From an uncultured Lachnospiraceae bacterium (GTDB taxonomy: Bacteria > Bacillota > Clostridia > Lachnospirales > Lachnospiraceae), in NCBI GenBank assembly GCA_944381405.1, contig CALWLA010000023.1, positions 1-36,949 of the forward strand: a DNA stretch of 36,949 nt, given 5' to 3'. Shown here one piece after another: positions 61 to 17,809 of the stretch. Position 1 is the first letter of the stretch, and every line of letters starts with the position of its first letter. A program made the position numbers and the translations under genes. The notes beneath the pieces were generated by a model. The model was not told the origin of the DNA. It saw only the letters and a program-made list of their open reading frames with translations, and made no database searches.

Positions 61-2314
61 ATTTCTACTCACACGCCCCTCGCGGGGCGTGACCCGAGTG
101 TCCATAACATCTTTCTCCGCCTTTTGACATTTCTACTCACACGCCCCTCGCGGGGCGTGACGCTTTACCTCTGGCGGCGCAATGTTGTATGACGATATTT
201 CTACTCACACGCCCCTCGCGGGGCGTGACATCACCGGCGCCAGCTCCCGGCTGTCCATCCCGCAATTTCTACTCACACGCCCCTCGCGGGGCGTGACAAA
301 TGAGGAACGTAGTCTATTTTCGCGCAAAAGTATTTCTACTCACACGCCCCTCGCGGGGCGTGACATTCCCCGGCTGCCTTTTACAAAAATAAAGAAGGAT
401 TTCTACTCACACGCCCCTCGCGGGGCGTGACGAATAGGTTGGGAATCCCGCACTTTAGCCTGCACATTTCTACTCACACGCCCCTCGCGGGGCGTGACCC
501 CAATGGCGATTTCTAATATAAATAACGGAGGGATTTCTACTCACACGCCCCTCGCGGGGCGTGACAGAAATTCCAAGTTCTTCATACGGGGGCCGGTAGA
601 TTTCTACTCACACGCCCCTCGCGGGGCGTGACGGTGTACGGCGATGCGTTGGTGTCCGGCAATGCGATTTCTACTCACACGCCCCTCGCGGGGCGTGACA
701 CCGGCAGCTCCGGAGGGCAAAAGGGAGGCTGTCTTATTTCTACTCACACGCCCCTCGCGGGGCGTGACGCGGATGCCGTCTGCGCTGCCCATCCGATCAC
801 CGGATTTCTACTCACACGCCCCTCGCGGGGCGTGACGAAAGTTCCGGCGTGGATGTATTTCGTAAAATTCATTTCTACTCACACGCCCCTCGCGGGGCGT
901 GACTGGGAGATCACTGACGAGGAGATCGCACAGCAAGAATTTCTACTCACACGCCCCTCGCGGGGCGTGACGATCATAGGGGACTATACTTGCAGCAGCT
1001 CTATAATTTCTACTCACACGCCCCTCGCGGGGCGTGACAAGAAGAAAAGGAGAAATTAAAAAACATCTTAAAATTTCTACTCACACGCCCCTCGCGGGGC
1101 GTGACTTTCCTGAACCGTCAGCTGTCGAATATCACGGACATTTCTACTCACACGCCCCTCGCGGGGCGTGACGCGTTCCCGCCGTTGCGGATGTATTCAT
1201 CGGCAAATTTCTACTCACACGCCCCTCGCGGGGCGTGACGTGCCCAGGCCTATGGGCTTGCCCATGTACTCATATTTCTACTCACACGCCCCTCGCGGGG
1301 CGTGACCCGGAGCGCCTGGAACTGGCCCAGACCATCACAATTTCTACTCACACGCCCCTCGCGGGGCGTGACGCTGTAAAACTGCTCCGTGTTCAAAGTC
1401 ACGATAATTTCTACTCACACGCCCCTCGCGGGGCGTGACGGAACAGTATGAAGAAAAGCTCCGGATGGAGGAAGATTTCTACTCACACGCCCCTCGCGGG
1501 GCGTGACGGACATGTTCACGCCTGCGGATTTCTTCGTTACCGCTATTTCTACTCACACGCCCCTCGCGGGGCGTGACTTCTTGGCGTCGGTAGGGGTGGC
1601 GACGGTATCAGATTTCTACTCACACGCCCCTCGCGGGGCGTGACGCTAACCGAAGACCAGATCAAGGACTTCCAGGCAATTTCTACTCACACGCCCCTCG
1701 CGGGGCGTGACCCAGTTCGCAGGCCCGGAGGCGGTCCGTAAGATCATTTCTACTCACACGCCCCTCGCGGGGCGTGACCTCAACTTTATTGGCAACTCCT
1801 GCCATTCTTGTATTTCTACTCACACGCCCCTCGCGGGGCGTGACACTCATCGATTGCGATACTGATTGAACCGGTCATATTTCTACTCACACGCCCCTCG
1901 CGGGGCGTGACGGGAACAACAATATCAGGATATGTTAAACCGACTTATTTCTACTCACACGCCCCTCGCGGGGCGTGACTGGCGACGGCCCTGAACGGGT
2001 TAAAGGTTGATGGATTTCTACTCACACGCCCCTCGCGGGGCGTGACAGGGGCGGGACTCGAACCCACAATCTCCAGGATAATTTCTACTCACACGCCCCT
2101 CGCGGGGCGTGACGGATTGAGGTTGGAGATGCTGTTACGGCTATGACGATTTCTACTCACACGCCCCTCGCGGGGCGTGACATAGGAAATCTAAGTCTTG
2201 AGGACTTGGGTATAGATTTCTACTCACACGCCCCTCGCGGGGCGTGACAACCTGAACCATCTTTGCGCCTTTAAGTGTCCAATTTCTACTCACACGCCCC
2301 TCGCGGGGCGTGAC
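61..2314 (-). CRISPR. Type I-C CRISPR array, 34 repeats and 33 spacers
   Basis: Thirty-four copies of a 33-nt repeat start at 61, 129, 197, 265 and so on to 2282, and all look identical, including the distal one. Spacers are 33-37 nt, mostly 34-35. Read on the minus strand, the repeat is GT, an 8-bp stem CACGCCCC/GGGGCGTG with a GCGA loop, then an 11-nt tail TGAGTAGAAAT. In type I-C systems Cas5c cuts at the base of this stem and leaves an 11-nt 5' handle, which fits. Transcription is inferred to be on the minus strand because cas2 and the leader lie at the high-coordinate end. The newest spacers are therefore near 2281 and the oldest near 94. No duplicate spacers were noticed. The spacer at 2047-2080 resembles part of a tRNA. 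Confidence 0.99.
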
Positions 2315-2467: not shown

Positions 2468-2758
2468 TTATACTATGAGAATGCCTTCCGGATTATAAGT
2501 CTTTTTCGCGCCTATATGCTCAACCCGTTTCTCCCAGTTATTCCCCAGATAGTAAAACCTCAGACTGTCTTGCTCGATGTCGATCAATTTCACCAATCTG
2601 TCTTTCAGCTTTAAAAATGCAGAATAATCGAGGTCGGCCTCAAAAACTGAGTTCTGCACTCTCTGGGCATGATTCTGGCACTCTTTTGCAACTTTTCTTA
2701 ATCTGGTTTTTCCTGCTGAACTTGTAGTACTCACATCATAACTGATTAAGACCATCAT
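2468..2758 (-). CDS. cas2: CRISPR-associated endonuclease Cas2
   Basis: Cas2 is the small ferredoxin-fold subunit that bridges two Cas1 dimers in the spacer-integration complex. The protein is 96 residues from the chosen ATG, normal for type I-C Cas2. It begins MMVLISYDVST with the conserved Asp after the first beta strand, followed by the Cas2-typical segments LRKVAKEC and QRVQNSVFE. An in-frame GTG at 2770 would add four residues, but the AGAAGG ribosome site overlaps it; that site is better spaced (about 11 nt) for the ATG at 2758. It lies 19 nt after cas1 and is the last gene before the leader, as usual in I-C operons. Confidence 0.96.
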   Translation of the reverse strand: MMVLISYDVSTTSSAGKTRLRKVAKECQNHAQRVQNSVFEADLDYSAFLKLKDRLVKLIDIEQDSLRFYYLGNNWEKRVEHIGAKKTYNPEGILIV

Positions 2759-2777
2759 AAAATCGATCACCTTCTGT

Positions 2778-3800
2778 CTATTTCAAAAGAAAAGATGGAT
2801 AAGTTTCAATATCGCCGCGTACATATTTTGCCAGAAGATTACTTTGAACATATGGTAATAGGCCCATCGGAATTTTCTGTTTTAGATAAGGGTGCATCAT
2901 ATCAGAACGTTTCTTTTCCTGCCAACGGGTCAATACCTTCTTACGCCCTTCATCGTTTAGCCAGACTGCTCCCGATACCTGATGTTCAAAATCTTTTTCT
3001 CCAATGATCTGTAAATTCAATAAAGTAATTACAAACCGCTCTACGAGACATCTTGCCTCTTCCACCAGATCACAGGCCAATGAAGTTCTTCCGCTCCTCA
3101 ACGTATGGCAGTATCCAATATAGCTGTCAAGTCCAACTGTTTCCAATGCCGCTGCAAACTCGCTGGTAGCCAGTGTATATACAAAAGATAACACTGCATT
3201 GATCGGATCCAGAGGCGGCCTCTTTGTACGAAGTTCAAAGGTAAATGGCACCTTTTTATTCGTGATCAGTTTATTAAACACGGAAAAGTAACTTTGTGCG
3301 CAGTATCCTTCTATCCCAACGATTTCTTCTATACTTTGTGACTGATACAACTGATCGATGCCCGATGTTAATATTTCAATCGCTTTTTGCATTTCCGGCT
3401 CTTCACGCAGTTCTGGGTTATCATGCAGTGTGCGCCGTATCACCTGCCTAGTATTACTGAATTTTGCAGCCATTGTATTCTGAGCAAGCTCAAGACCGCA
3501 TTCTCTGAACTTATCGATCTGTGCCACCCTCAAAAATACATTTCCTTTCGTCTCGCCGCAGACCTTAGCCAAGAACCGTCCTTGAGGTGATATAAAATTA
3601 ATAGGTATTGTTTTTCCCACACATTTTCCCATCAGCGCCGGAGAACAGCCCACATAGTTGAAGCAGACAATATTTTCAATGTTTTCGAAGGGAATCCGGA
3701 GTTTAATCTCGCCATCTATTTTGCACACAAGATTTTCTCCGTCCAATGTCAGATAAGCAGTTTCATTTGTAACATAAACCGTATTTAGCAATTTTCTCAT
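2778..3800 (-). CDS. cas1: CRISPR-associated endonuclease Cas1 (type I-C)
   Basis: Cas1 is the metal-dependent integrase that inserts new spacers at the leader end of the array. The 340-residue product starts MRKLLNTVYVTNETAYL, characteristic of type I-C Cas1. The catalytic set is visible as E164 (in VGIEGYCAQ), H232 (in GYCHTLRSGR) and D244 with neighbouring E247 (in LACDLVEEAR). The frame is open further upstream, but the ATG at 3800 overlaps the cas4 stop as ATGA, a standard coupled start and the usual family N terminus. It acts with Cas4 and Cas2, which flank it here. Confidence 0.98.
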   Translation of the reverse strand: MRKLLNTVYVTNETAYLTLDGENLVCKIDGEIKLRIPFENIENIVCFNYVGCSPALMGKCVGKTIPINFISPQGRFLAKVCGETKGNVFLRVAQIDKFRECGLELAQNTMAAKFSNTRQVIRRTLHDNPELREEPEMQKAIEILTSGIDQLYQSQSIEEIVGIEGYCAQSYFSVFNKLITNKKVPFTFELRTKRPPLDPINAVLSFVYTLATSEFAAALETVGLDSYIGYCHTLRSGRTSLACDLVEEARCLVERFVITLLNLQIIGEKDFEHQVSGAVWLNDEGRKKVLTRWQEKKRSDMMHPYLKQKIPMGLLPYVQSNLLAKYVRGDIETYPSFLLK

Positions 3801-4471
3801 AGCTCCGTTCCCTCTATCTTCTCTATCTCGGCCCGGAAATTTTTTATCGGCTTTATGGAAGGCATACACAACTCTTTCATAGAACATCCGCTGCATTTCT
3901 GTCCTTTCCTGATTGCTGGTATCTTCCCTTCGCTTAAATATTGTCTCATTTCTTGCAATATCTGTTTAAGCCGTGTATCATATTCCTCAAAATTTTCTCT
4001 AAGCGGCAAAGCGATTCTTTTCTTCACATCCGCATAGTAGATCAAACCATCGCAGTCTCCGCCAAATACATAATCCACACAGATTTTTTGGGCAAATACC
4101 TGCATCAGGTCATCCTCTCTGTACTCCAGATGTTTAGGTTTCGTCGGCTTATACTCCACAACGGAAATATGATACGTCTCTTCACTTCCATCAACAGAAA
4201 TTCCTGAATCATCTCTGGTAAGCTCCAGACAATCCGTCACTCCGTACAAATTATATGGCTCGAGATCATGATATACCGGGACAGAGGTAAATACCTTTTT
4301 TCCCCGCATCGCATAGCTTTTCTCTGGATCATGTACACGCTCATGCATTAGATTTGCCTTTGTCACATAGACATTTTCTGCCCAAGCCTTATCGATCTCC
4401 AATAGCCCCCAACGATGCGGACAATACAAATAATGCTGGATGGAACGGATCGTTATTTCTGCCGACTTCAT
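3797..4471 (-). CDS. cas4: CRISPR-associated exonuclease Cas4
   Basis: Cas4 is a RecB-family nuclease with an Fe-S cluster that trims prespacers and checks the PAM before Cas1-Cas2 integration. The 224-residue protein keeps both parts. Nuclease residues are H43, D80 (GVTDCLE), and E106 with K108 (VEYKPTK). The cluster cysteines are C17 (YCPHRW) and the C-terminal trio C193, C196 and C202 (KCSGCSMKELC). The start overlaps the cas7 stop and the stop overlaps cas1, each by 4 nt, so the genes are translationally coupled. An intact Cas4 suggests that spacer acquisition is functional. Confidence 0.97.
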   Translation of the reverse strand: MKSAEITIRSIQHYLYCPHRWGLLEIDKAWAENVYVTKANLMHERVHDPEKSYAMRGKKVFTSVPVYHDLEPYNLYGVTDCLELTRDDSGISVDGSEETYHISVVEYKPTKPKHLEYREDDLMQVFAQKICVDYVFGGDCDGLIYYADVKKRIALPLRENFEEYDTRLKQILQEMRQYLSEGKIPAIRKGQKCSGCSMKELCMPSIKPIKNFRAEIEKIEGTEL

Positions 4472-5325
4472 ATTTTTTCAATCAATTCAACACCGGCTGG
4501 CATATCTCTGTCAACACGGATTTCATAATCGCTGAAAGCCCTTGGAACAGCACCAGCCTTTTCCTCGACTTTTATTTTATCGAAAAGGACATGAGACGGA
4601 CAATTCCCCAGAACATTTTCATGCTTAAATACATACAGCTTCCGCATGCACATTTTCCCTCTTGCCGCGCTGTGATCGATTTCAAACATATTCATAAGCG
4701 CAGACCAGAGAAGTTCCAAATCGTCTTCCGACAGACCGGTCGATTTGTTTGCCAGCGCTGCAGAAACATATCCCTCTGCCCGATAAAGTGCATATGGAAT
4801 CACGCTCTTTCTTCCCATTTCCGTATCGCCAGTCTCTTTCCTGTCCTCTGTAGTCCGTGCCTGTCTGGTGATCGTAACATCCTGAATACTGATGGGAGAA
4901 ATACTTCTTGCGAAGTTGATCTGCACCGGTCCTCTTACGATTCCGCAGGGATCGTCTCCGGTTGACATGACCGCTCCAAATGTCCTGACATCGTAATAGT
5001 TTCGGCACATATAATCTCTTGCTTTCTTCACCTCATCCGGATCTTTCCCTTTATTTTTCGTCTTTAGACCTTCTGCTTCATAAGCAGCTGTAAATTTCGT
5101 ATTCAACGAGCGGTCCGGTTTGATCAGGATGTTATATCCAGGCTCTCCCTCTTTCACAAGCTCTACATAGTTCCTGATCTTACGCTTCAGACAGACGTCT
5201 GTAATATATCCATATCCAGATTCCACATCGATTCTCGGGGCGTTTCCAGCATCCGGATCGCCATTCGGATTTCCGTTTTCCACATCAAAAAGAATTACAA
5301 AATCATATCTGTTTGTAAGTGCCAT
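4468..5325 (-). CDS. cas7c: Type I-C Cascade backbone protein Cas7 (Csd2)
   Basis: Cas7c polymerises along the crRNA spacer to form the backbone of the I-C Cascade. The 285-residue product begins MALTNRYDFVILFDVENGNP and continues with NGDPDAGNAPR, the hallmark N terminus of Csd2. The open frame runs another 17 codons upstream, but the ATG at 5325 has a GGAGG site a few bases before it and follows the cas8c stop by one base. The gene overlaps cas4 by 4 nt. Nothing looks truncated. Confidence 0.97.
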   Translation of the reverse strand: MALTNRYDFVILFDVENGNPNGDPDAGNAPRIDVESGYGYITDVCLKRKIRNYVELVKEGEPGYNILIKPDRSLNTKFTAAYEAEGLKTKNKGKDPDEVKKARDYMCRNYYDVRTFGAVMSTGDDPCGIVRGPVQINFARSISPISIQDVTITRQARTTEDRKETGDTEMGRKSVIPYALYRAEGYVSAALANKSTGLSEDDLELLWSALMNMFEIDHSAARGKMCMRKLYVFKHENVLGNCPSHVLFDKIKVEEKAGAVPRAFSDYEIRVDRDMPAGVELIEKI

Positions 5326-5326
5326 A

Positions 5327-5713
5327 TTACTCTTCCTCCATTTCCTCTGATTGTATTGATTTCTTCCATAACTCACGATTCTGCTGATAATATCCGACGT
5401 CGAATGTTCCCTGCTCCGTCAAGCAGAGGGTTTCCGGGAATCCTCCCTCCAGGCCATCCATTATTTCGCCGATCAGCTTATTATAAAAGACAACAACCGG
5501 ATATTTATTTCTCACTTTGTTCAAATGATTCTGTGCAAGCCGAATCAGTTTTGGAAACACCAGCGCCGGCCTGGCTGATGCAGAGGCAAAATATGCATCC
5601 TTGATTGTCCGGTTCAGCGAATTATTTGATGCGTCCTGCTGCAGTTTTTCGAGCACAGCAAATAATCTGCCGCACAAATATGCCGGTGTCTGATTTGTTC
5701 TGTCCAATGACAC
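5327..5713 (-). CDS. cas11c: Small Cascade subunit Cas11c from an internal start inside cas8c
   Basis: Type I-C systems are known to make their small subunit Cas11 from an internal start near the 3' end of cas8c. Here codon 477 of cas8c is GTG (5711-5713), in frame, preceded by the strong ribosome site AAGGAGG (5722-5728) with 8 nt spacing. A site this good inside a coding region is unlikely to be chance. The product would start (fMet)SLDRTNQTPAYLCGRLF and be 128 residues, close to the roughly 120 reported for other Cas11c proteins. Cas11 stabilises the belly of Cascade and the displaced strand. Production is inferred from the start signals, not shown. Confidence 0.82.
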   Translation of the reverse strand: MSLDRTNQTPAYLCGRLFAVLEKLQQDASNNSLNRTIKDAYFASASARPALVFPKLIRLAQNHLNKVRNKYPVVVFYNKLIGEIMDGLEGGFPETLCLTEQGTFDVGYYQQNRELWKKSIQSEEMEEE

Positions 5714-7141
5714 TTTTAATTCCTCCTTTGATTTTTTATTATTAATACAGGCTTTTATGATACCCGCCCGTATAGCATTTATCTTCCCGCTTCCTTCGTC
5801 TGTCTTGACTCTCCTGACGATCGTTTCCAAAAGCGCCTCCGGATACGTCCCGCCATTTAAGATGCCTTCAAGCAATCTCGACATCACTGCTGGATTCACC
5901 TTATCATTCTTGCTCTTGGGAGAAATCATCTCGCGTTTGATCTGCCAGAGCGCCACAGACTGAAAATCCTCTGTCACCTGCAGATCCTTCTGGAATCTTG
6001 CAATATTCCACAATACATCGGCGTATCTTCTCCGTATGATAAATTTGACCGACAGTCTGGAGGAATTAGGTTTCAATCCCAGCATATAAAAATCCACATT
6101 TGGATCAATCAGGTCTAAGGATTGGAGTCTTTCCTCCGTCACCTTGGCGTCACGGGCATCCTTCAAGAGTTCCTTAAGCATCGCATCTGTTTTTTCAGCA
6201 TCCATCTGTTCCTGCTGCCCAAGAAACAGCTTCATAAATAGGTCTTCACACGCCTCATTGCTGCTCATAGCCCAAAATACGATCGTCATCTCATCCAGCA
6301 TCGCTTTATGTTTGTCGCTGCTCAGGAGGAAATTCAAAGCCTCTGTATATTTTTTCATTGCAGCTTCAGAAATGTTACTGTTATAAGACTGTTCATTTCC
6401 ATAGGAGTTTTCGGAATCATTGTTAAACCCTATCAGCACACTTCCCGTCGGCAGCCCACCATAGACGCCTTTTATCTTACTGTGGATTCTTGCTATCGGC
6501 TCGATTTCTCCCGTAACAGCGCATTGTGCTGTTCTGGTCTGGTCATCTTTCTCCGGTTTTCCTGCCCTCTCTTCTTCCCACCTTTTCTTCAACTCCGGAT
6601 CTTCATGCAAAAGACAGTCCGGCTCTCCGGACAAGCAGAAGGCGAAGCCCGCTTTCTGATAATCTTTTCCAAGTCCCAAAAGCCACTCGTTTTTTGTCTC
6701 TTCTTCCGGCTTCCAGGAGAGTAGAAAATTTCTGAAGGCAGAAATCATCGGCGACTGAAGCTTTTCTATAAACTCCAAATTGGCTTTTACAAAGGCCATG
6801 TGCGATTTTCTTGCCTTATCTGTCCTGTCATCCGGCGTCAGCTGATCCTTCTCCAGATTTAATCCAAAAATATACAGCGGCCGGTGTTCTGCGATATTAG
6901 CTTCTATTCCCGGCTTTTCCGTGCGTTCCGGCATCACCATTTCTACCGGGACTTTTTTTATCTTTGCCTTTTTTCCTGAAGGCACCAGCTCGTCTTTTTG
7001 GCAATCAATGATTTCATCTATCTTCCCATTCTCAGTCAGAGAGATCTTGTAGTGAATATTCACTTTGGAATACCCCGCCGGGAGAACACTGCCCTTCGCA
7101 GCCAGAATATCATAATAATCGCATAAGGCTTTTATTAACAT
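5327..7141 (-). CDS. cas8c: Type I-C Cascade large subunit Cas8c (Csd1)
   Basis: Cas8c recognises the PAM and recruits Cas3 in the type I-C interference complex. The product is 604 residues, close to the usual 580-620. Family features include the N terminus MLIKALCDYYDILAAKG and the C-terminal helical region from about residue 477, with CGRLFAVLEKLQQ and the segment ASARPALVFPKLIRLAQNH. The ATG at 7141 overlaps the end of cas5c by 7 nt and has a GGGAGGA site. The last 128 codons appear to be translated a second time from an internal GTG to give Cas11c, listed separately. Confidence 0.97.
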   Translation of the reverse strand: MLIKALCDYYDILAAKGSVLPAGYSKVNIHYKISLTENGKIDEIIDCQKDELVPSGKKAKIKKVPVEMVMPERTEKPGIEANIAEHRPLYIFGLNLEKDQLTPDDRTDKARKSHMAFVKANLEFIEKLQSPMISAFRNFLLSWKPEEETKNEWLLGLGKDYQKAGFAFCLSGEPDCLLHEDPELKKRWEEERAGKPEKDDQTRTAQCAVTGEIEPIARIHSKIKGVYGGLPTGSVLIGFNNDSENSYGNEQSYNSNISEAAMKKYTEALNFLLSSDKHKAMLDEMTIVFWAMSSNEACEDLFMKLFLGQQEQMDAEKTDAMLKELLKDARDAKVTEERLQSLDLIDPNVDFYMLGLKPNSSRLSVKFIIRRRYADVLWNIARFQKDLQVTEDFQSVALWQIKREMISPKSKNDKVNPAVMSRLLEGILNGGTYPEALLETIVRRVKTDEGSGKINAIRAGIIKACINNKKSKEELKVSLDRTNQTPAYLCGRLFAVLEKLQQDASNNSLNRTIKDAYFASASARPALVFPKLIRLAQNHLNKVRNKYPVVVFYNKLIGEIMDGLEGGFPETLCLTEQGTFDVGYYQQNRELWKKSIQSEEMEEE

Positions 7142-7863
7142 CGCAATTCCTCCCTGTATTTTTTCACGTCGATCACTCCACGGATCATATGTGGACGGTA
7201 ATAGAGGGTAGATGCTTTATCTGAAAATTTCGGATTATTCCAGTCATGATTGATGGGTTCTCCCCCATCTTCAAACTGGACTCTATAGCTCATATATCCA
7301 AGATTCACATCGCCCATGCGCAGAATATTGCTGCTGATGAGCTTCTCATCGAAGTCTTCCACCAGTTCGATTCTTTTCACCGGGAATTCACAGCACCCAA
7401 GGCATGGTGTCCGGAACCACTGCCCCTTCTCTAGCCTTCTTTTTATGATATTGTAATGCTTATTTTCTCCATCCGTCTCTGCGTCATTTTTTAGTCCGGT
7501 CAGTTCAAAATGAAACTCTACTCCGTATTTCACGTTTTTCAGCACCATCGCCGCCCGTTGGCTTCTGCTTTCCGAAGCATAGATACAGGGATCTCCGCCT
7601 TTGCCATTCATCTGGCTCTTCACTGTGCTAAAAAGTGCCTTGTCTTTTACTTCATTTCTTCTGATATTGACAAAATCAATATCCTGAAAAACAATAATCT
7701 TATCGATCACATAACGTATGGCAGGCTTCCAGTATATGCTCTTCAGAAGTCCTTCCAACGCTCCGGGCGTCGGTACATCATAGCTTACCCGTTCCACTTT
7801 AAGCTCTGGTCGTGTAAAACAGGCATAGTCGCCTTCCACAATAATTTTAAATCCATAGCTCAT
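7135..7863 (-). CDS. cas5c: Type I-C crRNA endonuclease Cas5c (Cas5d)
   Basis: In type I-C there is no Cas6; Cas5c cuts the pre-crRNA at the base of each repeat hairpin and then caps the 5' handle in Cascade. The protein is 242 residues. It begins MSYGFKIIVEGDYACFTRPE and carries VSYDVPTPGALEGLLKSIYW, the conserved region that contains the catalytic tyrosine in characterised homologues (inferred equivalence). The start has an excellent AAAGGAGG site and lies 16 nt after cas3; the end overlaps cas8c. No cas6 is present, consistent with Cas5c processing. Confidence 0.97.
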   Translation of the reverse strand: MSYGFKIIVEGDYACFTRPELKVERVSYDVPTPGALEGLLKSIYWKPAIRYVIDKIIVFQDIDFVNIRRNEVKDKALFSTVKSQMNGKGGDPCIYASESRSQRAAMVLKNVKYGVEFHFELTGLKNDAETDGENKHYNIIKRRLEKGQWFRTPCLGCCEFPVKRIELVEDFDEKLISSNILRMGDVNLGYMSYRVQFEDGGEPINHDWNNPKFSDKASTLYYRPHMIRGVIDVKKYREELRC

Positions 7864-7879
7864 CGTTTTCCTCCTTTCT

Positions 7880-10090
7880 TCAGCTTAAAAAATAATCCGG
7901 TGCCTCAAATAAAACGCCCTTACATTCATCATAATAATCCATATTTGTGAGACAGTAAATACCTGTCCCATAATCATCAGCCGCGTGCTGACGGATCAGA
8001 TCCTCCAATTCCTTCTGCCTCACAGAGCAGGTATAATTCTGCAGCTTCCTGACGTTTCCCACCTTTGAATATTTCATCACCTCCACTAATTTTTCACTCT
8101 GAGCGTCTTGCGGAACTACCAGAGACACCTGTCTGGAGTCGATGAGTTCAAATTTTTCTGCATACTCTTTAAAAGGAATGGAATCCAGATCGGAACACAG
8201 TTGGTGCATGGAGTTTTTCTGAATATCCTCTGCTCTCATAAAATACAGTCTGGAATAATATTCTTCAATACATCTTACATCTGAGATATCCTCGTAGTTT
8301 TTCAGCAGTCCCTTTGTGAGGCTCGCCTTCTCATTTGATGCCGCCTGTCTCGTTTCCTCTGCCAGATCAAAAATGAAAACATCCGCCTCCTGTCTTTTTC
8401 CCTCTCTATTGCAGCGGCCTCCTGCCTGAAGGATGCTGTCCAAACCAGATCTTTCCCTGAAAACCGTATAAACATCCAGATCCACACCCGCTTCAATCAG
8501 AGAAGTCGATATAATCGTAATCCTCCTGTCCTCCGGTACATTTTGATATTCTGGATAGTCTGCCTCCAACTGCTTCAGTTCCTTTCTTATCTCTTTCAGG
8601 ATTCGTTTCCTGTCATAAGACGTCATATAGGTAGACAAATGATATTTTTTGCCCCCGCACTCCTGATATAATTCTCTGGCAGTTGCTTTTTTATTGACAA
8701 TAATCAACGATGACGGATATGCACAGCATTTGGCAAGCAGTTCAGAAGAGGATATCTCCCCAATATATCTGTATCCGCACTTCTGGAATTTCGTAAACAA
8801 GGAAGTGTCCTTTATCAATTTTACAATTTTACTGTCCGGAAGCGCGTATTCCTTCATCAACTTTTCAAAATCCGGCATAGTCGCTGTCAAAAATACTGCT
8901 TCGCTGTGTAGATATCGGGTAATATATGCGACGGCCTGAAGGCATGGCTGCAGGTAATCCTGCGGCATCAGATGTGCCTCGTCAAAAATCAGGATACTGT
9001 CGGCCATATTATGCAGTTTACGGAGCTTTCCTCGCTTATTTGCATAGATCGACTCGAAAAACTGAACTGCTGTTGTGATAATAAACGGCGCATCCCAATT
9101 TTCTGCCGCTGTCTTTGCGGCTTCCCTGTAATCTTCACTGCCGTTCTCCTCCTCTTCGTAGGAAAACGTTGACTGATGGCGCAGGATTTCTAAACTATCA
9201 CCAAATAGTCCTTCAAACACTTCCGCCGTCTGTTCTATAATGCTGTTGTATGGAATCACATAAATAATCCGCTTCTTTTCCTTAGCCAAAGCCCTTTCCA
9301 ACGCAATTTTCACACTTGCAAGCGTTTTGCCGCTCCCTGTGGGCATATTAAGCAAGTAAATCTCCGAATCCTGATTCATGTTCTGGAACGCCTGGTTTTG
9401 AAGAGCAGCTCTTGCTCTCTGAAGTTCTGTTTTACAGACAAATGCGTTCAGCCTGTCATCAACCTTCTGAAGACAAGCAGAAAAATCTGCATTTAGTTTT
9501 CTGGGCAACTCTCTCTCCTTACAAAAATCAGCCGTATCGATGGAATCAGCATCCACTAAACAGGAAAATACATATCTGGTAAGAAACGCGAACTTATCGA
9601 TCACCTTCTCCATCCGATTATCACAGTCTCTGAACAGATATGTCATCCACTCAAAGCCGTTCAGTTCCGGTAGAGCAAGCTCATCTTTATATTCGCTGTA
9701 ATCCTCATATTCTCTTTTCAGCCGTCCGCACAATGTAGATTTGTCCATATCGTCATTAGGAAACCCTCCATCCGGAATTCCAGAATGATGCCCAGAAATG
9801 CAGTATTCCATCATAAGTGCCATAGGAGGCGGCACCGCGTACTTTTCTTTGGCTGCAAGTGCTCCACAAATGGAATGCTCCACTTTAATATTGGCCCCGT
9901 TGATTCTCTTTACAAACGAATCCTGAAATTTCCCGACATCGTGAAGCAAGCCAACTGCGTACATAAAATCTTTTAACTCCGGTATTGAAAAATCTCTGCA
10001 TAACTCTGCTGTATTTTCGCAGTGCTCCTTGACAGTCTGAACTGCCCCGGAAGTTTCATTTCTATGTGCAATATATCTATTCACATCCAT
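7880..10090 (-). CDS. cas3: CRISPR-associated helicase-nuclease Cas3 (HD plus DExD/H)
   Basis: Cas3 is recruited by Cascade to unwind and degrade the targeted DNA. The HD nuclease domain is N-terminal, with H23, H50-D51 (LLHDVGKFQ), H72 and H101-H102. The superfamily 2 helicase follows with Walker A MPTGSGKT (249-256), DEAH at 370-373, LTATMP (motif III) and QAGGRCNREGK (motif VI). Length is 736 residues from the ATG at 10090, chosen because a GAGGGG site lies 10 nt upstream; a TTG at 10111 in the same frame is less likely. It is the first gene of the cas operon, about 26 nt after the predicted transcription start. All motifs are intact. Confidence 0.97.
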   Translation of the reverse strand: MDVNRYIAHRNETSGAVQTVKEHCENTAELCRDFSIPELKDFMYAVGLLHDVGKFQDSFVKRINGANIKVEHSICGALAAKEKYAVPPPMALMMEYCISGHHSGIPDGGFPNDDMDKSTLCGRLKREYEDYSEYKDELALPELNGFEWMTYLFRDCDNRMEKVIDKFAFLTRYVFSCLVDADSIDTADFCKERELPRKLNADFSACLQKVDDRLNAFVCKTELQRARAALQNQAFQNMNQDSEIYLLNMPTGSGKTLASVKIALERALAKEKKRIIYVIPYNSIIEQTAEVFEGLFGDSLEILRHQSTFSYEEEENGSEDYREAAKTAAENWDAPFIITTAVQFFESIYANKRGKLRKLHNMADSILIFDEAHLMPQDYLQPCLQAVAYITRYLHSEAVFLTATMPDFEKLMKEYALPDSKIVKLIKDTSLFTKFQKCGYRYIGEISSSELLAKCCAYPSSLIIVNKKATARELYQECGGKKYHLSTYMTSYDRKRILKEIRKELKQLEADYPEYQNVPEDRRITIISTSLIEAGVDLDVYTVFRERSGLDSILQAGGRCNREGKRQEADVFIFDLAEETRQAASNEKASLTKGLLKNYEDISDVRCIEEYYSRLYFMRAEDIQKNSMHQLCSDLDSIPFKEYAEKFELIDSRQVSLVVPQDAQSEKLVEVMKYSKVGNVRKLQNYTCSVRQKELEDLIRQHAADDYGTGIYCLTNMDYYDECKGVLFEAPDYFLS

Positions 10091-10122
10091 AATTTTCCAA
10101 CCCCTCAACAACTCTTTGATTT

Positions 10123-10151
10123 ATAATATCACACTTCTTTTCTTATTACAA
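10123..10151 (-). promoter_or_regulatory. Predicted promoter of the cas operon
   Basis: On the minus strand, TTGTAA (10146-10151) and TATTAT (10123-10128) are separated by exactly 17 nt. They match the sigma-A consensus at 4/6 and 5/6 and lie upstream of the cas3 ribosome site, with a start near 10116. The -35 box directly abuts the CTC that precedes the site resembling the creR-like guide. Confidence 0.7.
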
Positions 10152-10174
10152 CTCTAATATAATATATTGTATTT
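10152..10174 (+). promoter_or_regulatory. Predicted Cascade operator: PAM plus protospacer-like site next to the cas -35 box
   Basis: The plus strand reads CTC (10152-10154, a YYC-type PAM as reported for type I-C) followed by 20 nt (10155-10174) that match the start of the creR-like pseudo-spacer at 18 positions. Mismatches are at spacer positions 12 and 17; position 12 is one of the every-sixth bases that type I guides flip out. The match stops after position 20. Cascade bound here would cover DNA directly upstream of the cas -35 box. Similarity, PAM and position are visible; the function is inferred. Confidence 0.65.
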
Positions 10175-10180
10175 TTTATT

Positions 10181-10227
10181 AAAGAAAAAATCATCCGCAA
10201 AACTTTTTCGTTCTACAGATGATTTTC
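10181..10227 (-). terminator. Intrinsic terminator of the creR-like RNA
   Basis: The minus strand forms a 9-bp stem AAAATCATC/GATGATTTT (10218-10226 with 10187-10195). An inner hairpin contains GU pairs and is followed by a run of six T then CTTT. It ends the small RNA about 30 nt before the cas -35 box, so the RNA is a separate unit and not a cas leader. Confidence 0.8.
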
Positions 10228-10289
10228 TCAAACACAAAATATTATATTAATTTCTACTCACGTGAGCTATTCTCACGACCGAAAATACA
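10181..10289 (-). ncRNA. creR: CreR-like solitary crRNA gene predicted to guide Cascade to the cas promoter
   Basis: This roughly 110-nt minus-strand unit has three parts. First is one diverged repeat (10250-10279): GT, a 6-bp stem CGTGAG/CTCACG with a 5-nt loop, then the 11-nt handle TGAGTAGAAAT, identical to the array repeat. Second is a pseudo-spacer from 10249 downward. Third is an intrinsic terminator ending near 10181. A promoter lies just upstream. The pseudo-spacer seed matches the cas promoter beside a CTC PAM. CreR RNAs in other type I systems use limited guide complementarity so that Cascade binds and represses without Cas3 cutting. The gene symbol is assigned by analogy. An alternative is a decayed repeat with a chance AT-rich match. 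Confidence 0.7.
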
Positions 10290-10295
10290 CTGTTC

Positions 10296-10324
10296 ATTTT
10301 AATAGATAAGAGATAATAATTCAA
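10296..10324 (-). promoter_or_regulatory. Predicted promoter of the creR-like RNA
   Basis: TTGAAT (10319-10324) and TAAAAT (10296-10301) are spaced by 17 nt on the minus strand, giving a start near 10289, about 10 nt before the diverged repeat. An overlapping alternative is TTGAAC with TATTAT at 16 nt spacing further upstream. Confidence 0.6.
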
Positions 10325-10564: not shown

Positions 10565-11764
10565 TCAATAAGTATCTTTCAGCAGAAAATCGGCCAGATG
10601 TATGATTTTTACGCCATTGATGTTTCCTCCGGCCAGTTCATCCAGAGTTACCACATATTTCGGGTAGTGGTCTTTGATCTCAAGGAGATTTGCTATCTCT
10701 CGATCCGATGCCTCCGGCAGACTGCGGCACACCTGAACATAAATACGCTCATCCCGCTGCACCGCCACAAAATCGATTTCCTTTGTCGCATTCTTTCCGA
10801 TATAGACCTCATAGCCCCGCCGCCGCAGTTCAAAATACACGATGTTTTCCAACATGGCGGCAATGGATTTCGGATTAAAACCCATGGTGCAGTATTTCAG
10901 AGAAGCGTCTGCCAAGTAGAACTTTTCCTGGGTCTTCAACACAGATTTCCCCTGAAGATCATACCGCTGGCAGCGATAAATCACAAAGGCCGCCTCCAGC
11001 CAGTTCAGATAGTTGTAAACTGCCTCCACGGACAGGGAACGTCCTTCGCTTTTGAGGAACTTTGCAATGGAATTGGCGGAAAAGGTCTTGCCAACATTTT
11101 CCACGATATACTTTATGACCCGGTTGAATAAATCGAAGTTCGTGACATTGTGCCGTTTGGTAATATCGTGGGTAATCACCGAGTTATAGATGCCTTCCAC
11201 GATCTGATAGGCAGAGCGCTCGTCAAAGTTACCCAGCGCCACAATGGGGAATCCGCCCAACCGCAGGTATTCGTTTAACAGCTCCTTGGGAGAACGAGGA
11301 TCCGTTTTTTTGAAATCCAGATATTCAGCAAAGGACAGCGTATAAACCGGAATGGAAACGTATCGCCCAGTTAAATAAGTGGAGATTTCACTGGACATCA
11401 GCTTGGAATTGGAGCCGGTCACATAAATATCGGTATTGGCATTTTCCAGCAGGCTATTGACCGCTTTTTCCCAACCATCGATTTCCTGCACTTCGTCCAG
11501 CAGCAGATAGTAGCGTCCATCGCCAGTCATCTGCTCTTTGATGCCCTTATACATATCTTTGTCGCTCATTCCATCATCAAAATCCTCTGACGTATAGCGC
11601 ATACTGATGATATGGTCTTCGGCGATCCCGCTTTTCAGCAGGTCATCCCGCAGCATCTCCAGGATCGTGGATTTTCCGCAGCGCCGGATTCCAGCCAGTA
11701 TCTTTACCAACGGAACATCCCGATAGGTTTTCAGCCTGTTCATATATTGTGGCCGAATGATCAT
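10565..11764 (-). CDS. AAA ATPase with DUF4143 C-terminal domain
   Basis: This is a stand-alone member of the widespread AAA_14/DUF4143 family, whose function is unknown. The N-terminal ATPase has Walker A GIRRCGKS (25-32) and Walker B YYLLLDEVQE with D90-E91, followed by the typical TGSNSKLMSSEISTYLTGR region. The C-terminal half carries the DUF4143 signature around KTQEKFYLADASLKY and the nuclease-like strand pattern EIDFVAVQRD. Length is 399 residues from the ATG at 11764, chosen for its GAGGAGGTGA site; the open frame continues 19 codons upstream without support. It is not in an operon. Its position next to CRISPR and AbiE is suggestive of defence, no more than that. Confidence 0.9.
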   Translation of the reverse strand: MIIRPQYMNRLKTYRDVPLVKILAGIRRCGKSTILEMLRDDLLKSGIAEDHIISMRYTSEDFDDGMSDKDMYKGIKEQMTGDGRYYLLLDEVQEIDGWEKAVNSLLENANTDIYVTGSNSKLMSSEISTYLTGRYVSIPVYTLSFAEYLDFKKTDPRSPKELLNEYLRLGGFPIVALGNFDERSAYQIVEGIYNSVITHDITKRHNVTNFDLFNRVIKYIVENVGKTFSANSIAKFLKSEGRSLSVEAVYNYLNWLEAAFVIYRCQRYDLQGKSVLKTQEKFYLADASLKYCTMGFNPKSIAAMLENIVYFELRRRGYEVYIGKNATKEIDFVAVQRDERIYVQVCRSLPEASDREIANLLEIKDHYPKYVVTLDELAGGNINGVKIIHLADFLLKDTY

Positions 11765-11838
11765 ATCCTTCACCTCCTCTTTTCTTATCAGGAGTATATA
11801 GAAAAACTTCTCTAATTTCAATAGTTTTTACTTACAAT

Positions 11839-11877
11839 CCGTAAAAACTTGATATTTCTAAGGTTTTTTACGGTCAA
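11839..11877 (-). promoter_or_regulatory. Possible promoter and operator of the DUF4143 ATPase
   Basis: A 9-bp inverted repeat, CCGTAAAAA (11839-11847) with its complement (11865-11873), lies about 75 nt upstream of the ATPase start. It overlaps a weak minus-strand promoter, TTGACC (11872-11877) and TATCAA (11849-11854) with 17 nt spacing. The arrangement suggests an operator, but the binding protein is unknown. Confidence 0.35.
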
Positions 11878-11970
11878 ATTCTGAAATAATCCAGATATCT
11901 TTGATACCGATCCCGGACGGTCAGACAGGTAAATCTCTCATGGAACGCCAGGATGCCATCCAATCTTTTC

Positions 11971-14900
11971 TCAGCTGATCACCCACCTGACATGGCTTCC
12001 ATCCTCGTCCTTCCCCACCAAAAGCTGGTCCTCGATCTCCTGTTTCAGCTCGCTGACATGGGAAATGATGGCGATGAGCTTATCGCCGCCGGAAAGGCGC
12101 TGCAGCACCCGCACCGCCTGATTGCGGGCGTGATCGTCCAGAGAGCCGAAGCCCTCGTCGATGAACATGATATCCAGATGGATGGAGGCGGTACTTTCCC
12201 GGATCTGGTCTGCCATGCCCAGCGCCAGGGAAAGGGCCGCCATAAAGGACTCGCCGCCGGAGAGGGTGCGCACCTCCCGTTCCTTGCCGGTTACCACGGA
12301 GTAAACCATCAGATCAAGGCCCCGGTTCCTTCCGGCGCCTGCCTGGGCTTCCTCCACCATCCGCAGCTCGAACTGGCCGCCGGACATTTCCCGGAAATGG
12401 CCGTTGGCCGCATACAGGATCCGCTGCAGATAATACCGCTGCACAAAGGTCTCGATGTCCATCCGGCCTCCGGTGACCTTTCCGGACAACCGTCTGTACA
12501 GGCTGTCCATGCGGGTATATTCTGCCATCAGCTGGCTGCGTTCCGCCATGCGGGACCCCAGGGCGGTATAAACGCTCTGGTTCCTCTGGAGCAGTTCCTT
12601 TACCTGATTCGCTTCCTCTGCTGCCGCCCGGTAAGCTGCATCTGCTGCAAGCTGCCGTTCCTCCAAGGCCTGCAGCTCCGGTTTCGGCTGCCCGCCGATG
12701 GTTTTCAAAGCAGCGGCCTTCTGACCTTCTGCCTGGTTTTTCTTTTCATGATATGCCGCAGCCTTTTCCCGCAGCTCCGCCACCGTTTCCTTCCGATACC
12801 GGGCGGAAAGCTCCTTCCATTCCTCCTCCTTAAGCTCTTTTTCCTGAAGGCAGGCCTCATAATCCTTTTTCTGTTCCGCCCTCTCCTCCTGAAGCTTTGG
12901 AAGCTCCCTCTGATACTGTCCCATCAGGGTCTCTGCAGCTTCTTTTTTCTTTTTCGCCTGCTCTGCCGCCTGTTTGGCTTTCTCCCATGCATCGCCGGCT
13001 TTCTTCTTTTCCTGCTCCGCTGCCCTTAAGGCCGCCTCTGCTTCCGGCAGGGTATCATAGGTTTTCTGGGCTTCCAAGGCCTCCAGCGCTGCCCCGGCTG
13101 CTGCCAGCGCCTTTTTCCCTTCAGACTGCTGTTCCGCTGCAGCCTCCAGCTGTTGCTGCAGCTGGGCTCTCTTGCCTTCGGCCCTGTTCAGATTTTCCCG
13201 CACTGTCTGAAGGACCCCTACATCTTCCTGCAGCTTCTGTCCCTCCCGGGCAAGCTCCGCCTGCCGCGCCTCTATCTGCGCCTGTATCCTGGACAGAGAG
13301 AAGGATTTTGAATTCACTTCCAAAATCTCTTTCCAGAGCCCAGCCTCTTCCAACAGCTGCCCGAGCCGTTCCTTTGCCGCCTCATGCTGTTGTTCTTTTT
13401 CCTTCAGCACCTCTGCAGCAGATGCGGCCTTGGCAGCACAGAGCTTCTGGTTTTCATTTAATTCCCTTACCTCTGCCTCCAGCTCGTCGATCATTTCCCG
13501 GGTCAAATGTTCTTCCGCCTCCGTCAGCCTGCAGGGGGCGGGATGGGACAGGGAGCCGCATACGGGGCAGGGCTCTCCCGGCCTTAATTTTTCCCTGGCC
13601 AAAAGCCCTGCCTGGGCGTCCAGGAAGGCTCTTTGTTTTGCCGCGTATTCCTCATTTTTTGACTGATAGGCTGCTCTGGCTGCTTCATACTGCTTTTGGG
13701 CGTTCTGCAGCATCTGCCTCTGATCCGCGAGCCGCTGCTGCGCCTGTTCCACCTCTCCTGCTGCCGCAGCTGTCTGCTCTGCCTGCGCTGCCCTGGACTT
13801 CCATTGCAGAAGCGCCACCTCCGTATCCTTGAGCCCCTCTGCCTGCTGCTTCCACTGCTGTTCCTGCTCTGTAAAATCCTGCAGCGCTGTCCTGGCCGCT
13901 TCGACAGCCTGCTCCGCCTGGCAGGCAACGGCCTCCTGCTTTTTCAGTTCTGCCTGGGCCTTTTGCAGCTTTCCAAAAAGCTCCCTGGCTGCTTTGACAC
14001 CTTCAAAAACCCTGGTATATTCCTGCAGGGCTTTCTCCTGGGCTGTCCGGGCCTGCTGCGCTTCCTTTTCCTGCATTTCCCAGGCCTCGGCAAGCTCCGG
14101 CAGTTCCTCCTGCCGGGCTTTCAGCGCCTCCTCCGTTTCCCGGGCCCTCCTGGCACCCTCCTGATAACGGTCATAGACTGCCTTGATCTCATAGGCCCCT
14201 TCGATCTGTCCCATGAGTACCGCTTCCTTTTGGATCTCCTCCTGCTGCTCCCGGCAAAGGGCAAGGCGCTCCTCCGCCTCCTCCAACTGTCCAAAGGCCT
14301 CCTGCAGGCTCCGGGCCTTTTGAACAGCGTCCCTGGCTTCGTCCCGCAGTCTGCCCGCTTCCTGGCTTTTCTCTTCTGTCAGGACCTGCTGCCCCTCCAG
14401 ACTTTTGCAGTATGCTTCCAGGTCTGTCAAAAGCGCTTCCAGGTCTGTCACGCTCAGGGTATCCGCTTCCATGATCCGGGTCTTAAGGTCCGCCAGCGCA
14501 GGAAGCTCCAGCCGTCCGATCTCGTTTTTGCAGACCGCAAAAAGCTGGCTGAGCGCTCCGCTTTTTTCCTTTGTGCGCCGGGCAAGCTCCTGCACCACAT
14601 TTTCATAGAGTCCCGTTCCAAAGAGCCTCCGGAAGATCGCCTTTTTCTGGTCAGAGCCTGCCCGCAGAAGCTCCATGAACTCTCCCTGAGCGATCATGGC
14701 CACCTGCATGAACTGGCTTTTGGTAAGGCCTACGATCTCCGTAAGCTTGGCGTCGGTTTCCTTTTTGTTCTGGCCGTACTCCCTGCCGTCTGGCATCAGA
14801 AGGGATACCGCCTCCACCTCCTCTTTTTCCCCTTTTCCCCGTTTCAGAGGCCGGATGTGCCGCGGAGCACGGCGCACCGTATAGATCTCATCCCCTTCGG

Positions 14901-15153
14901 AAAACTCCAGCTCCACAAAGGGCGCCTCCCCTTGATGCGCAAACTGGCTCTGGAGCTCCAGTCCGTTTTTCCGGTTACTTTCGGAGCTGGCTTCTCCGTA
15001 AAGGGCAAAGACGATGGCGTCAAAAATGGTGGTTTTTCCGGCTCCCGTGTCTCCGGTGATCAGAAACAGATTTTGATTTGGCACCCTGAAATCTATCTCC
15101 GTCTTTTTTCCGTAGGACCCGAAGGCCTGCATGGTAAGCTTTCTTGGCCGCAT
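11971..15153 (-). CDS. sbcC: Exonuclease subunit SbcC (Rad50-like ATPase)
   Basis: SbcC partners SbcD in an ATP-dependent nuclease that opens DNA hairpins and degrades palindromes and blocked ends. At 1060 residues it has full family length. The order is Walker A GDTGAGKTT (34-42), a long charged coiled coil, the zinc hook CPVCGSLSHP near residue 528, a second coiled coil, the ABC signature LSGGESF near 963 and Walker B DIMFIDEGFGSLDD near 996. The ATG lies one base after the sbcD stop and has a GGGGGTGG site, so the pair is one operon. The opposite strand shows long open frames because of biased G+C; these are not genes. Confidence 0.97.
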   Translation of the reverse strand: MRPRKLTMQAFGSYGKKTEIDFRVPNQNLFLITGDTGAGKTTIFDAIVFALYGEASSESNRKNGLELQSQFAHQGEAPFVELEFSEGDEIYTVRRAPRHIRPLKRGKGEKEEVEAVSLLMPDGREYGQNKKETDAKLTEIVGLTKSQFMQVAMIAQGEFMELLRAGSDQKKAIFRRLFGTGLYENVVQELARRTKEKSGALSQLFAVCKNEIGRLELPALADLKTRIMEADTLSVTDLEALLTDLEAYCKSLEGQQVLTEEKSQEAGRLRDEARDAVQKARSLQEAFGQLEEAEERLALCREQQEEIQKEAVLMGQIEGAYEIKAVYDRYQEGARRARETEEALKARQEELPELAEAWEMQEKEAQQARTAQEKALQEYTRVFEGVKAARELFGKLQKAQAELKKQEAVACQAEQAVEAARTALQDFTEQEQQWKQQAEGLKDTEVALLQWKSRAAQAEQTAAAAGEVEQAQQRLADQRQMLQNAQKQYEAARAAYQSKNEEYAAKQRAFLDAQAGLLAREKLRPGEPCPVCGSLSHPAPCRLTEAEEHLTREMIDELEAEVRELNENQKLCAAKAASAAEVLKEKEQQHEAAKERLGQLLEEAGLWKEILEVNSKSFSLSRIQAQIEARQAELAREGQKLQEDVGVLQTVRENLNRAEGKRAQLQQQLEAAAEQQSEGKKALAAAGAALEALEAQKTYDTLPEAEAALRAAEQEKKKAGDAWEKAKQAAEQAKKKKEAAETLMGQYQRELPKLQEERAEQKKDYEACLQEKELKEEEWKELSARYRKETVAELREKAAAYHEKKNQAEGQKAAALKTIGGQPKPELQALEERQLAADAAYRAAAEEANQVKELLQRNQSVYTALGSRMAERSQLMAEYTRMDSLYRRLSGKVTGGRMDIETFVQRYYLQRILYAANGHFREMSGGQFELRMVEEAQAGAGRNRGLDLMVYSVVTGKEREVRTLSGGESFMAALSLALGMADQIRESTASIHLDIMFIDEGFGSLDDHARNQAVRVLQRLSGGDKLIAIISHVSELKQEIEDQLLVGKDEDGSHVRWVIS

Positions 15154-15154
15154 C

Positions 15155-16306
15155 CTATTCCACCCCCTGTACGCTGTTAATCACATCCTGCAGGAGCTTT
15201 TCCTCCTCTGGGCTAAGCCCCTCTCCCAGGAAACGGCTGCACAGGGCCAAGGGTCCCAGCTCCGGTTCCAGCTCCTGGCTTGCAAGCTCCCGCCTCTGCT
15301 GCAAAACCTCTCTCCTGATCTCCAACAGCATGGGAAAGGCATGGTGCAGCCGGTCCTGCATATCCATCACATCAAGATCTGCCTTGTCTGTCAGCACCAC
15401 GGTGACATAATCGCCGCAGGCCTCCCGCAAAACCTCCTCCAGCCTGCCTTTTATGATCCGCACCTGCCGCAGGGGGGTAAGCGGAAGCGATGTCACCTGC
15501 AAACTGCCTTTTTCCATAAGCTCCACCATCAGGATTCCCTTCTGCTGGCCAGCTTCGCTGACGGAGCAGGACAAGGGGGTACCGCAGTAGCGAAAGCGTT
15601 TGTCTCCCGCCTGCATCGGCTTGTGGATGTGTCCCAGCGCCGCATAATCAAAGGGCTCCAGCACATCCGCCTCCACGGCGTCGATATTGCCCAGGGTCCG
15701 TACTTCGGAATCCATCCGTTCCACCGCCTCTGGATCTGCTCCCTTTGGCAGATAAAACTGATGGCTCACCAACACGTTCCGCTGGCGCTCATCGATCGCC
15801 TCCCGTTCCAGAAGGCGGCGCAGGGTTTCGTGATAGGAAAAGCTGCTGCCGTCCTCCCTGGTGCCCAACACTGTCCGCATCATGGAAGGGCGCACAAAGG
15901 GGAGCAGGTAAAAATTCACCGGTCCAAACGCATCCTGCAAGACCACTTTTTCGATATGCTCCTCCGGGCCCTGAGGCGGCAGGCCGATCACATGTACCCG
16001 CTGCCGGGCAAGGATCTGCCGGTAAACATTGAGCCGCTGGGCGCTGTCGTGATTGCCGCTGATCATCATAAGCTCCGCCTTGGGCGCCGCCTCCAGACAG
16101 CGGAGCACAAAGCGGTCGAACAGCTCCACTGCTTCGGCGGAGGGAATGGCTTTGTCATAGATATCTCCTGCGATCAGGATGGCATCCGGCTGCTCCTGTT
16201 GCGCATAGGCCGCGATGCGGTCAAAGATATATGCCTGGTCCTCCCGCAGGTCCCGGTTCATCAGCCGCAGCCCGATATGCAGATCGGAGAGATGGAAAAA
16301 TTTCAT
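15155..16306 (-). CDS. sbcD: Exonuclease subunit SbcD (Mre11-like phosphoesterase)
   Basis: SbcD supplies the manganese-dependent nuclease of the SbcCD complex. The 383-residue protein carries the calcineurin-like phosphoesterase motifs in order: D8-L-H10 (HLSDLHIG), G-D48 (IAGDIYDK), N85-H86-D87 (SGNHDS), a histidine in VLVSHQFY, and GHIHKP. The start has an AAGGAGC site. It is the first gene of the sbcDC operon; no clear promoter was found in the short gap upstream. Nothing is missing. Confidence 0.97.
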   Translation of the reverse strand: MKFFHLSDLHIGLRLMNRDLREDQAYIFDRIAAYAQQEQPDAILIAGDIYDKAIPSAEAVELFDRFVLRCLEAAPKAELMMISGNHDSAQRLNVYRQILARQRVHVIGLPPQGPEEHIEKVVLQDAFGPVNFYLLPFVRPSMMRTVLGTREDGSSFSYHETLRRLLEREAIDERQRNVLVSHQFYLPKGADPEAVERMDSEVRTLGNIDAVEADVLEPFDYAALGHIHKPMQAGDKRFRYCGTPLSCSVSEAGQQKGILMVELMEKGSLQVTSLPLTPLRQVRIIKGRLEEVLREACGDYVTVVLTDKADLDVMDMQDRLHHAFPMLLEIRREVLQQRRELASQELEPELGPLALCSRFLGEGLSPEEEKLLQDVINSVQGVE

Positions 16307-16396
16307 GGTTTGGTGCTCCTTCGTCAGTTTTTATCCAAAGCTTGCCTTCTCCGGGGCTCCCGTCCAAATTTTTGGGGCCATTCGGTATCAGGCCAT

Positions 16397-16424
16397 CTTT
16401 CTACTCATACTCCCTGATTACGAC
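16397..16424 (-). repeat. Possible second diverged CRISPR-repeat-like element with crRNA handle
   Basis: On the minus strand this segment begins GTCGTAATC and ends TGAGTAGAAAG, which shares 10 consecutive bases with the CRISPR handle TGAGTAGAAAT. The part between could form only a weak stem (4 of 5 pairs). It overlaps the abiEii stop codon. No terminator follows, and the 34 nt after it match nothing I could find in the window. It may be chance. Confidence 0.3.
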
Positions 16425-17738: not shown

Positions 17739-17809
17739 CTTCGTTTCCTCCTTCCCGTAAAGAAAATTAAAGTAAGGCAGCATGGTTTCGCTTCTGCTGT
17801 CCTACGGAT

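Follow-up and report, generated by a model that had tools for sequence, protein, structure and literature searches.

A solitary CRISPR repeat upstream of type I-C cas operons with a guide matching the operon's own promoter: a candidate CreR RNA in a Lachnospiraceae bacterium and its relatives

Upstream of the type I-C cas operon in a 36,949-nt stretch of DNA from an uncultured Lachnospiraceae bacterium (GCA_944381405.1, contig CALWLA010000023.1; hereafter the window), a solitary CRISPR repeat is followed by a guide that matches the promoter region of the same operon. We read this element as the gene of a CreR RNA of type I-C that would steer Cascade to its own cas promoter, a negative feedback loop sensing Cascade occupancy, and give this reading a probability of about 0.88. 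Covariation of guide and promoter in relatives, the free guide positions 6 and 12, the exact start of the match at the handle, and a PAM fitting the phage protospacers of a relative's array all support what an earlier note on this DNA had proposed, namely a CreR-like guide aimed at its own cas promoter. The features of the locus are collected in Table 1.

Table 1. Features of the candidate regulatory RNA and the type I-C locus in the window
Feature	Position	Strand	Basis
Type I-C operon cas3-cas5c-cas8c-cas7-cas4-cas1-cas2 (would-be regulated)	2468..10111	-	NCBIfam and ORFs
cas3 ORF	7880-10111	-	NCBIfam and ORFs
CRISPR array, 34 repeats GTCACGCCCCGCGAGGGGCGTGTGAGTAGAAAT	61..2314	-	sequence; may extend below 61 to contig end
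Solitary diverged I-C repeat GTCGTGAGAATAGCTCACGTGAGTAGAAAT, 6-bp stem-loop and exact 11-nt handle	10250..10279	-	sequence, fold, relatives
11-nt crRNA handle TGAGTAGAAAT of solitary repeat	10260-10250	-	sequence
Guide TAATATAATATTTTGTGTTT	10230..10249	-	about 22 nt between handle and next hairpin
A/T-rich hairpin (18 bp) with terminal T run; candidate terminator and RNA 3' hairpin	10186..10227	-	fold
Candidate small-RNA promoter TTGAAT-17-TAAAAT	10296..10324	-	consensus scan only
Target (protospacer) of guide in cas promoter, 18/20 matches	10155..10174	+	sequence match
PAM CTC	10152..10154	+	sequence; CTT/CTC/TTC at phage protospacers of related L130 array
Candidate cas promoter TTGTAA-17-TATTAT, TG before second hexamer	10123..10151	-	consensus scan

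The solitary handle-bearing repeat had been placed upstream of cas3 on the same strand, and its coordinates are right and its 11-nt handle is exact. In the assembly, which has 2,003,003 bases and is 99.36% complete, the handle TGAGTAGAAAT occurs 35 times, always on one strand of the window's contig: 34 copies make up the array (61-2292), and the remaining one, at 10250-10260, stands upstream of cas3 in a repeat whose stem differs from that of the array repeat. The guide and the DNA downstream of it have a strong predicted fold (−24.0 kcal/mol) with a T run at its end, so that repeat, guide and hairpin together read as a small RNA gene of ∼100 nt (about 10290-10186, minus strand). This hairpin was not picked up by a simple terminator scan of the window, and an Rfam search returned a single chance match far under its cut-off. 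The ORFs between the guide and cas3 reach 27 aa at most and read through the hairpin or the promoter, so that the interval shows no sign of a toxin gene and cas itself would be the target. The start of cas3 is probably the ATG near 10090, since the TTG that the ORF list gives as start (10111) overlaps the GAGGGG ribosome-binding site.

The match of 10249-10230 to the plus strand at 10155-10174, next to CTC, was confirmed at 18 of 20 positions, with mismatches at guide positions 12 and 17. As had been claimed for the cas −35 box, the site directly borders the TTGTAA box of a TTGTAA-17-TATTAT promoter match; the promoters named here are consensus assignments, and the scan of this part of the window gave four matches on both strands, close to the shuffle mean of 3.0. 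PAM and seed together (YYYTAATANAATAT, with position 6 free) occur only once in the 2.0 Mb assembly, at 10152-10165, and none of 400 dinucleotide-shuffled versions of the region reached the match score of the window's element. One of the CreR traits examined, a guide with limited complementarity to the cas promoter region, is thus present.

The earlier note had suggested a search for such solitary elements upstream of cas3 in related I-C loci. With the window's Cas3 as query, one species-genome scan gave four loci, and further searches covered the genus (25 genomes), family (397), class (391) and phylum (398); for family f20 (38 genomes) the query was the L122 Cas3, and all these sets overlap. 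The regions upstream of cas3 were read by script over up to 800 nt. At a Cas3 identity of at least 40%, 30 loci were left after removal of L021, of which 28 could be evaluated (L087 is a duplicate and L105 has no upstream DNA), and the element is found in 16 of these. The 16 loci represent 15 distinct elements, the window's included, because L100 is nearly L099 (97% alike upstream); L100 is therefore counted among the loci and left out of the elements. These 15 carry the handle GTGAGT[AT]GAAAT, fall into families f1, f20 and f109, and all have a target within their own cas upstream region. Of the 78 loci with Cas3 identity below 40% (five of which have short upstream DNA), L108, L162 and L164 show a solitary repeat that bears the common I-C handle, together with a target for its guide; these three are weaker candidates than the 15 because the search that found them looked for the match. 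All seven I-C cas genes adjoin the element in 16 of the resulting 18; in the other two, L019 and L164, the contig ends after or inside cas3, so that the subtype is assigned from Cas3 and the handle. At the sequence level, then, a repeat-derived RNA gene with a usable handle stands by the cas operon at 15 distinct loci.

The element is not universal among I-C relatives, since it is missing in 12 of the 28 evaluable loci (L017, L020, L024, L026, L027, L094-L098, L146 and L148), including the closest relative L017 with 86% Cas3 identity; a locus counts as lacking it when up to 800 nt upstream of cas3 show neither a self-match nor a handle of the kinds searched for. Self-matches without a real handle (e.g., L046, L083, L088, L107, L109, L151, L158 and L168) were regarded as noise. 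In L036, a solitary repeat with handle GGATTGAAAC stands upstream of cas3 and is followed by an inverted repeat; this locus was left out of the 18 as its best match of 13/15 with PAM TAA is unconvincing. Also left out were L021 (same contig as L018), L087 (upstream region the same as in L020), the weak matches L013-L016 of the genus search and, as yielding no locus, G089 and G129 (two of 17 such rows in the family search, both cut by contig ends), seven rows of the class search and three of the phylum search. L020 and L087 hold a short cas3 remnant with no solitary repeat upstream in either, and the 18.4-kb locus of L020 has no further cas gene. Among the 25 genomes of its own genus, a close Cas3 is present in the window's genome only (the next best, L010, has 36% identity and no element), so that the window's I-C operon looks recently gained or widely lost.

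Covariation of the pseudo-spacer with the promoter in relatives, a test set in advance, is present. The seeds vary widely, e.g., TAATATAATAT in the window, TATTATAATGT in L018, TATTATTTTAT in L019, GATTTTGATAT in L022, AATTTTTAGTT in L023, TATTTGGTTGA in L025, TTAGTGATTGT in L028 and TTTAAATGTTA in L142, and the nine f1 and f109 elements differ pairwise at a mean of 4.4 of 10 seed positions (range 2-8). In the comparison of 13 elements, every guide fits its own region better than those of the others, with one tie between L099 and L102, whose guides are identical. Random pairing of guides and regions of the 13 elements reached the true total in 0 of 100,000 trials, and exhaustive pairing of the eight f1 elements did so in one of 40,320, which is the true pairing itself. 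In dinucleotide shuffles (400 each), 12 of the 13 element scores were never reached; the score of L018, which pairs over 15 nt only, was reached in 4/400. L018 comes from a cultured relative, Mordavella massiliensis An420c. A second run with wider regions and 1000 shuffles gave 0 for L108, L164 and L147, 1 for L142, and 2 for both L162 and L018.

A guide carried by type I Cascade pairs with its target except at every sixth base, which is flipped out. The pairing of the 18 elements follows this spacing: guide positions 1-5, 7, 9-11, 13 and 14 are free of mismatches, and mismatches are found at position 6 in 10 elements and at position 12 in 16. Positions 8 and 15 are mismatched once each (the former in L147, the sole case at this seed position), positions 16 and 17 three and five times, and positions 18, 19 and 20 in 14, 13 and 12 elements. 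These raw counts are partly selected, because the 15 scored positions (1-17 minus 6 and 12) also served to pick the site, a bias that the phase and shift controls answer. A mask that frees positions 6 and 12 scores 260/270 with 11 perfect elements, compared to 234-235 and no perfect element for the five other phases of the same spacing, and moving the guide start by one nucleotide gives 231 or 222, compared to 260 at the handle end. The mismatch at position 12, which the earlier note had taken for a non-pairing base, is thereby borne out statistically (16/18 elements and the phase control). Judged from these alignments, a 6/12 pattern that starts at the handle end is Cascade geometry, and we know of no other explanation for its starting exactly there.

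The PAMs of the 15 targets are CTC (9) and CTT (6), and those of L108, L162 and L164 are TTC, TTC and TTT, respectively. For comparison, spacers of the L130 array, from the genome and locus of L025, correspond to seven protospacers on two phage scaffolds (six on one of them), which are preceded by CTT (4), CTC (2) and TTC (1). The target thus lies next to a PAM that fits the system, with the reference taken from the array of one relative (L130), and the site appears to carry a normal PAM, at least in the L130/L025 system. If so, sparing from Cas3 must come from the short match, which ends at ∼17 nt compared to usual spacers of 33–37 nt. Among the arrays tried against phages, L130 alone gave protospacers: the window's array had three weak records, none of them usable, the arrays of L123 and L124 had one repeat-like match each, and those of L134 (two parts) and L131 had no match. 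Four spacers of the window, searched as exact patterns, had no match in viral contigs. Spacer 4 of the window's array (2047-2080) resembles, by eye, the 3′ end of a tRNA gene; matches of its core in its own assembly, with up to two mismatches allowed, are confined to the array.

The position of the target differs between families. In f1, it adjoins a promoter-like −35 box or sits a few bases upstream of it; by-eye reading has it abut the box in L009, L018 and L022, and in L018 and L023 the script's best-scoring promoter differs from the one read by eye beside the target. In f20, the target is located in the leader, ∼15 nt before the cas3 ATG and past a TTGACA box with 17–18 nt to a −10-like box, and the complement of the PAM, GAG, lies inside the Shine-Dalgarno sequence. 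The f20 RNA gene has its own TTGACA-17-TATAAT promoter match in five of six cases (TACAAT in L104), and the hairpin after its guide resembles a second CRISPR repeat in which a T run has replaced the handle. Among 13 elements folded, a stem is predicted just before the handle in 12, with differing stem sequences (L025 lacks the usual stem), and a hairpin after it in 11, the stretches of L019 and L101 having been badly cut by the script. L162 and L164 have their target on the upstream side of the solitary repeat, over promoter-like boxes, so that there the RNA may repress a promoter common to itself and cas. Upstream of its cas promoter, L029 carries two target sites in tandem, each next to CTT. 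Upstream of cas3 in L164 there are three handle-like matches and a second diverged repeat after the guide, which looks like a two-repeat mini-CRISPR.

From these features, we propose that the small RNA gene would produce a crRNA mimic from which Cas5c, the cutter of repeats in type I-C, would release the 11-nt handle. The RNA would then load into I-C Cascade, with the terminator hairpin standing in for the hairpin of the next repeat, and Cascade would bind at the cas promoter, where it would recognise a genuine PAM and open a short R-loop over positions 1-17, with 6 and 12 free. Covering or abutting the −35 box, this R-loop could block RNA polymerase, and Cas3 would not be licensed to cut because the match stops after some 17 nt, out of the usual 33–37. 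Repression would lift when array crRNAs or anti-CRISPRs occupy Cascade, a sensing role taken from known CreR.

Chance similarity, in which AT-rich intergenic DNA lies by a decayed array fragment, is the least credible of the alternatives. Guide and target are indeed AT-rich, and the caution of the earlier note on this point was fair, as the L018 shuffles also illustrate; yet it is answered by relatives with quite different seeds, including the GC-containing ones of L162 and L164, by the 0/400 shuffles of the other 12 elements, and by the pairing, phase and shift controls. The inverted repeat might instead work as RNA, either as a long hairpin in the cas leader or as an antisense RNA on the cas3 leader near the ribosome-binding site, which would suit the opposite-strand targets of 13/18 elements and the f20 target beside the Shine-Dalgarno sequence. 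However, the targets of the remaining 5/18 (L028, L029, L147, L108 and L162) are on the guide's own strand and cannot pair as RNA, which excludes a hairpin or antisense RNA there, and neither the free positions 6/12 nor the PAM has a role in RNA pairing, making this explanation very improbable overall.

Two further alternatives accept that the repeat engages Cascade. As an RNA anti-CRISPR (Racr), a phage-derived solitary repeat would poison Cascade, and solitary repeats do occur in phages (the parts consulted of PMC10651486; phage scaffold MT836150); but the element is found upstream of cas3 in many separate loci with a guide that tracks the promoter, and the guide of the MT836150 element is without such a target in the 1101 bases examined, so that we give this origin hardly any credence. 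The RNA could also guide Cascade here for a non-repressive purpose, e.g., cas activation or help in spacer acquisition. Several f1 targets immediately precede a −35-like box, a position from which a bound protein might also activate, whereas the f20 target in the leader past the −10-like box and the L162 and L164 targets over promoter-like boxes have positions suiting a block, and known CreR represses according to the portions seen of PMC12737573 and PMC13131331. We regard a non-repressive role as unlikely, if the least so of the four, and retain repression of cas by a CreR-like guide.

CreR, a cas-regulating RNA, was reportedly described by Liu et al. (2023, Cell Host Microbe, doi 10.1016/j.chom.2023.08.005), who may also predict one for type I-C; no CreR in type I-C was recognised among the matches listed in the literature searched, and it is unreported there as far as the consulted parts of these sources go. 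CreA (CreTA/CrePA, Science 2021) is said to repress a toxin, and in tracrRNA-guided self-repression of Cas9, a natural guide reportedly makes the effector repress its own promoter. The latter likewise uses a natural guide to its own promoter, and differs in being type II and derived from tracrRNA rather than from a repeat. In the portions seen, CreR is a crRNA-like RNA from a mini-CRISPR that is partly complementary to the cas promoter (PMC13131331, PMC12737573, PMC12948488); a crRNA-like RNA with a partial match to the cas promoter and no toxin is what we find here as well. As excerpted, a 2026 review has CreRs act in types I-B, I-E and V-A (PMC13131331), and a 2025 review places them in type I and V-A, a word search of its accessible text for ‘I-C’ being negative, and has them relieved by crRNA abundance or anti-CRISPRs (PMC12737573). 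The present element differs in belonging to type I-C, where Cas5 trims the crRNA according to the part seen of PMC10013973. Its structure may also set it apart, with one repeat plus hairpin (f1) or an apparent second repeat with a T run in place of the handle (f20), and its targets vary from a −35-like box to the cas3 leader or a site upstream of the RNA itself. As far as its sequence can tell, the element would work like a CreR and has every CreR feature examined at this level.

Like CreA, the element has a diverged repeat in an ectopic position and a Cascade guide that matches in part (PMC9458426, in part); in contrast to repression of a toxin, the match here is at the cas promoter. A toxin-promoter target as in CreA was not found: PAM and seed occur in the assembly at the cas promoter only and the ORFs do not exceed 27 aa, a measure that cannot show RNA toxins. 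Racr, too, is a solitary repeat unit, one of which was tested against type I-C, but is encoded by phages or plasmids and acts by mimicking the repeat rather than through a guide that matches the cas promoter (PMC10651486, as excerpted). Carriage by a phage or plasmid away from cas was not seen for our element, which is directly upstream of cas3 here and in relatives. The phage element mentioned above (L138; MT836150.1, ∼3740-3830) consists of a solitary I-C repeat with handle GTGAGAAGAAAT, a promoter-like sequence and a hairpin, and sits between an SSB-like gene and a HicA/HicB-like pair (ORF names by reading). It is a candidate RNA anti-CRISPR or toxin-linked element, and inspection of 1101 bases gave no convincing target for its guide.

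Taken jointly, the families suggest a broader picture, towards which we lean with clearly less assurance than towards the main reading. I-C systems of several bacterial families in at least two classes would carry their own CreR, with a guide held by selection to three Cas7-sized steps (positions 1-17, 6/12 free) on a valid PAM and with Cas3 sparing achieved by R-loop length, not by a poor PAM. In one family, the terminator would be a converted second repeat and the target would have moved from the promoter to the cas3 leader, and in common-handle I-C systems (L162, perhaps L164) the RNA may repress a promoter common with cas. RNA-guided self-regulation would thereby extend to type I-C, where Cas5 does the work of Cas6. 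With these natural guide-promoter pairs, it becomes testable which is the shortest R-loop on a valid PAM that lets Cascade bind while Cas3 does not cut, and whether de-repression is how I-C systems sense anti-CRISPRs and the load of crRNA. The strictness of the 6-nt pattern would serve as an evolutionary read-out of Cascade geometry, and handle, masked seed and PAM together offer a simple search key for further elements.

Past the RNA gene, the window holds at 10565-17783 an AAA_14/DUF4143 ATPase gene, SbcC- and SbcD-like genes, and short AbiEii/AbiEi-like genes.
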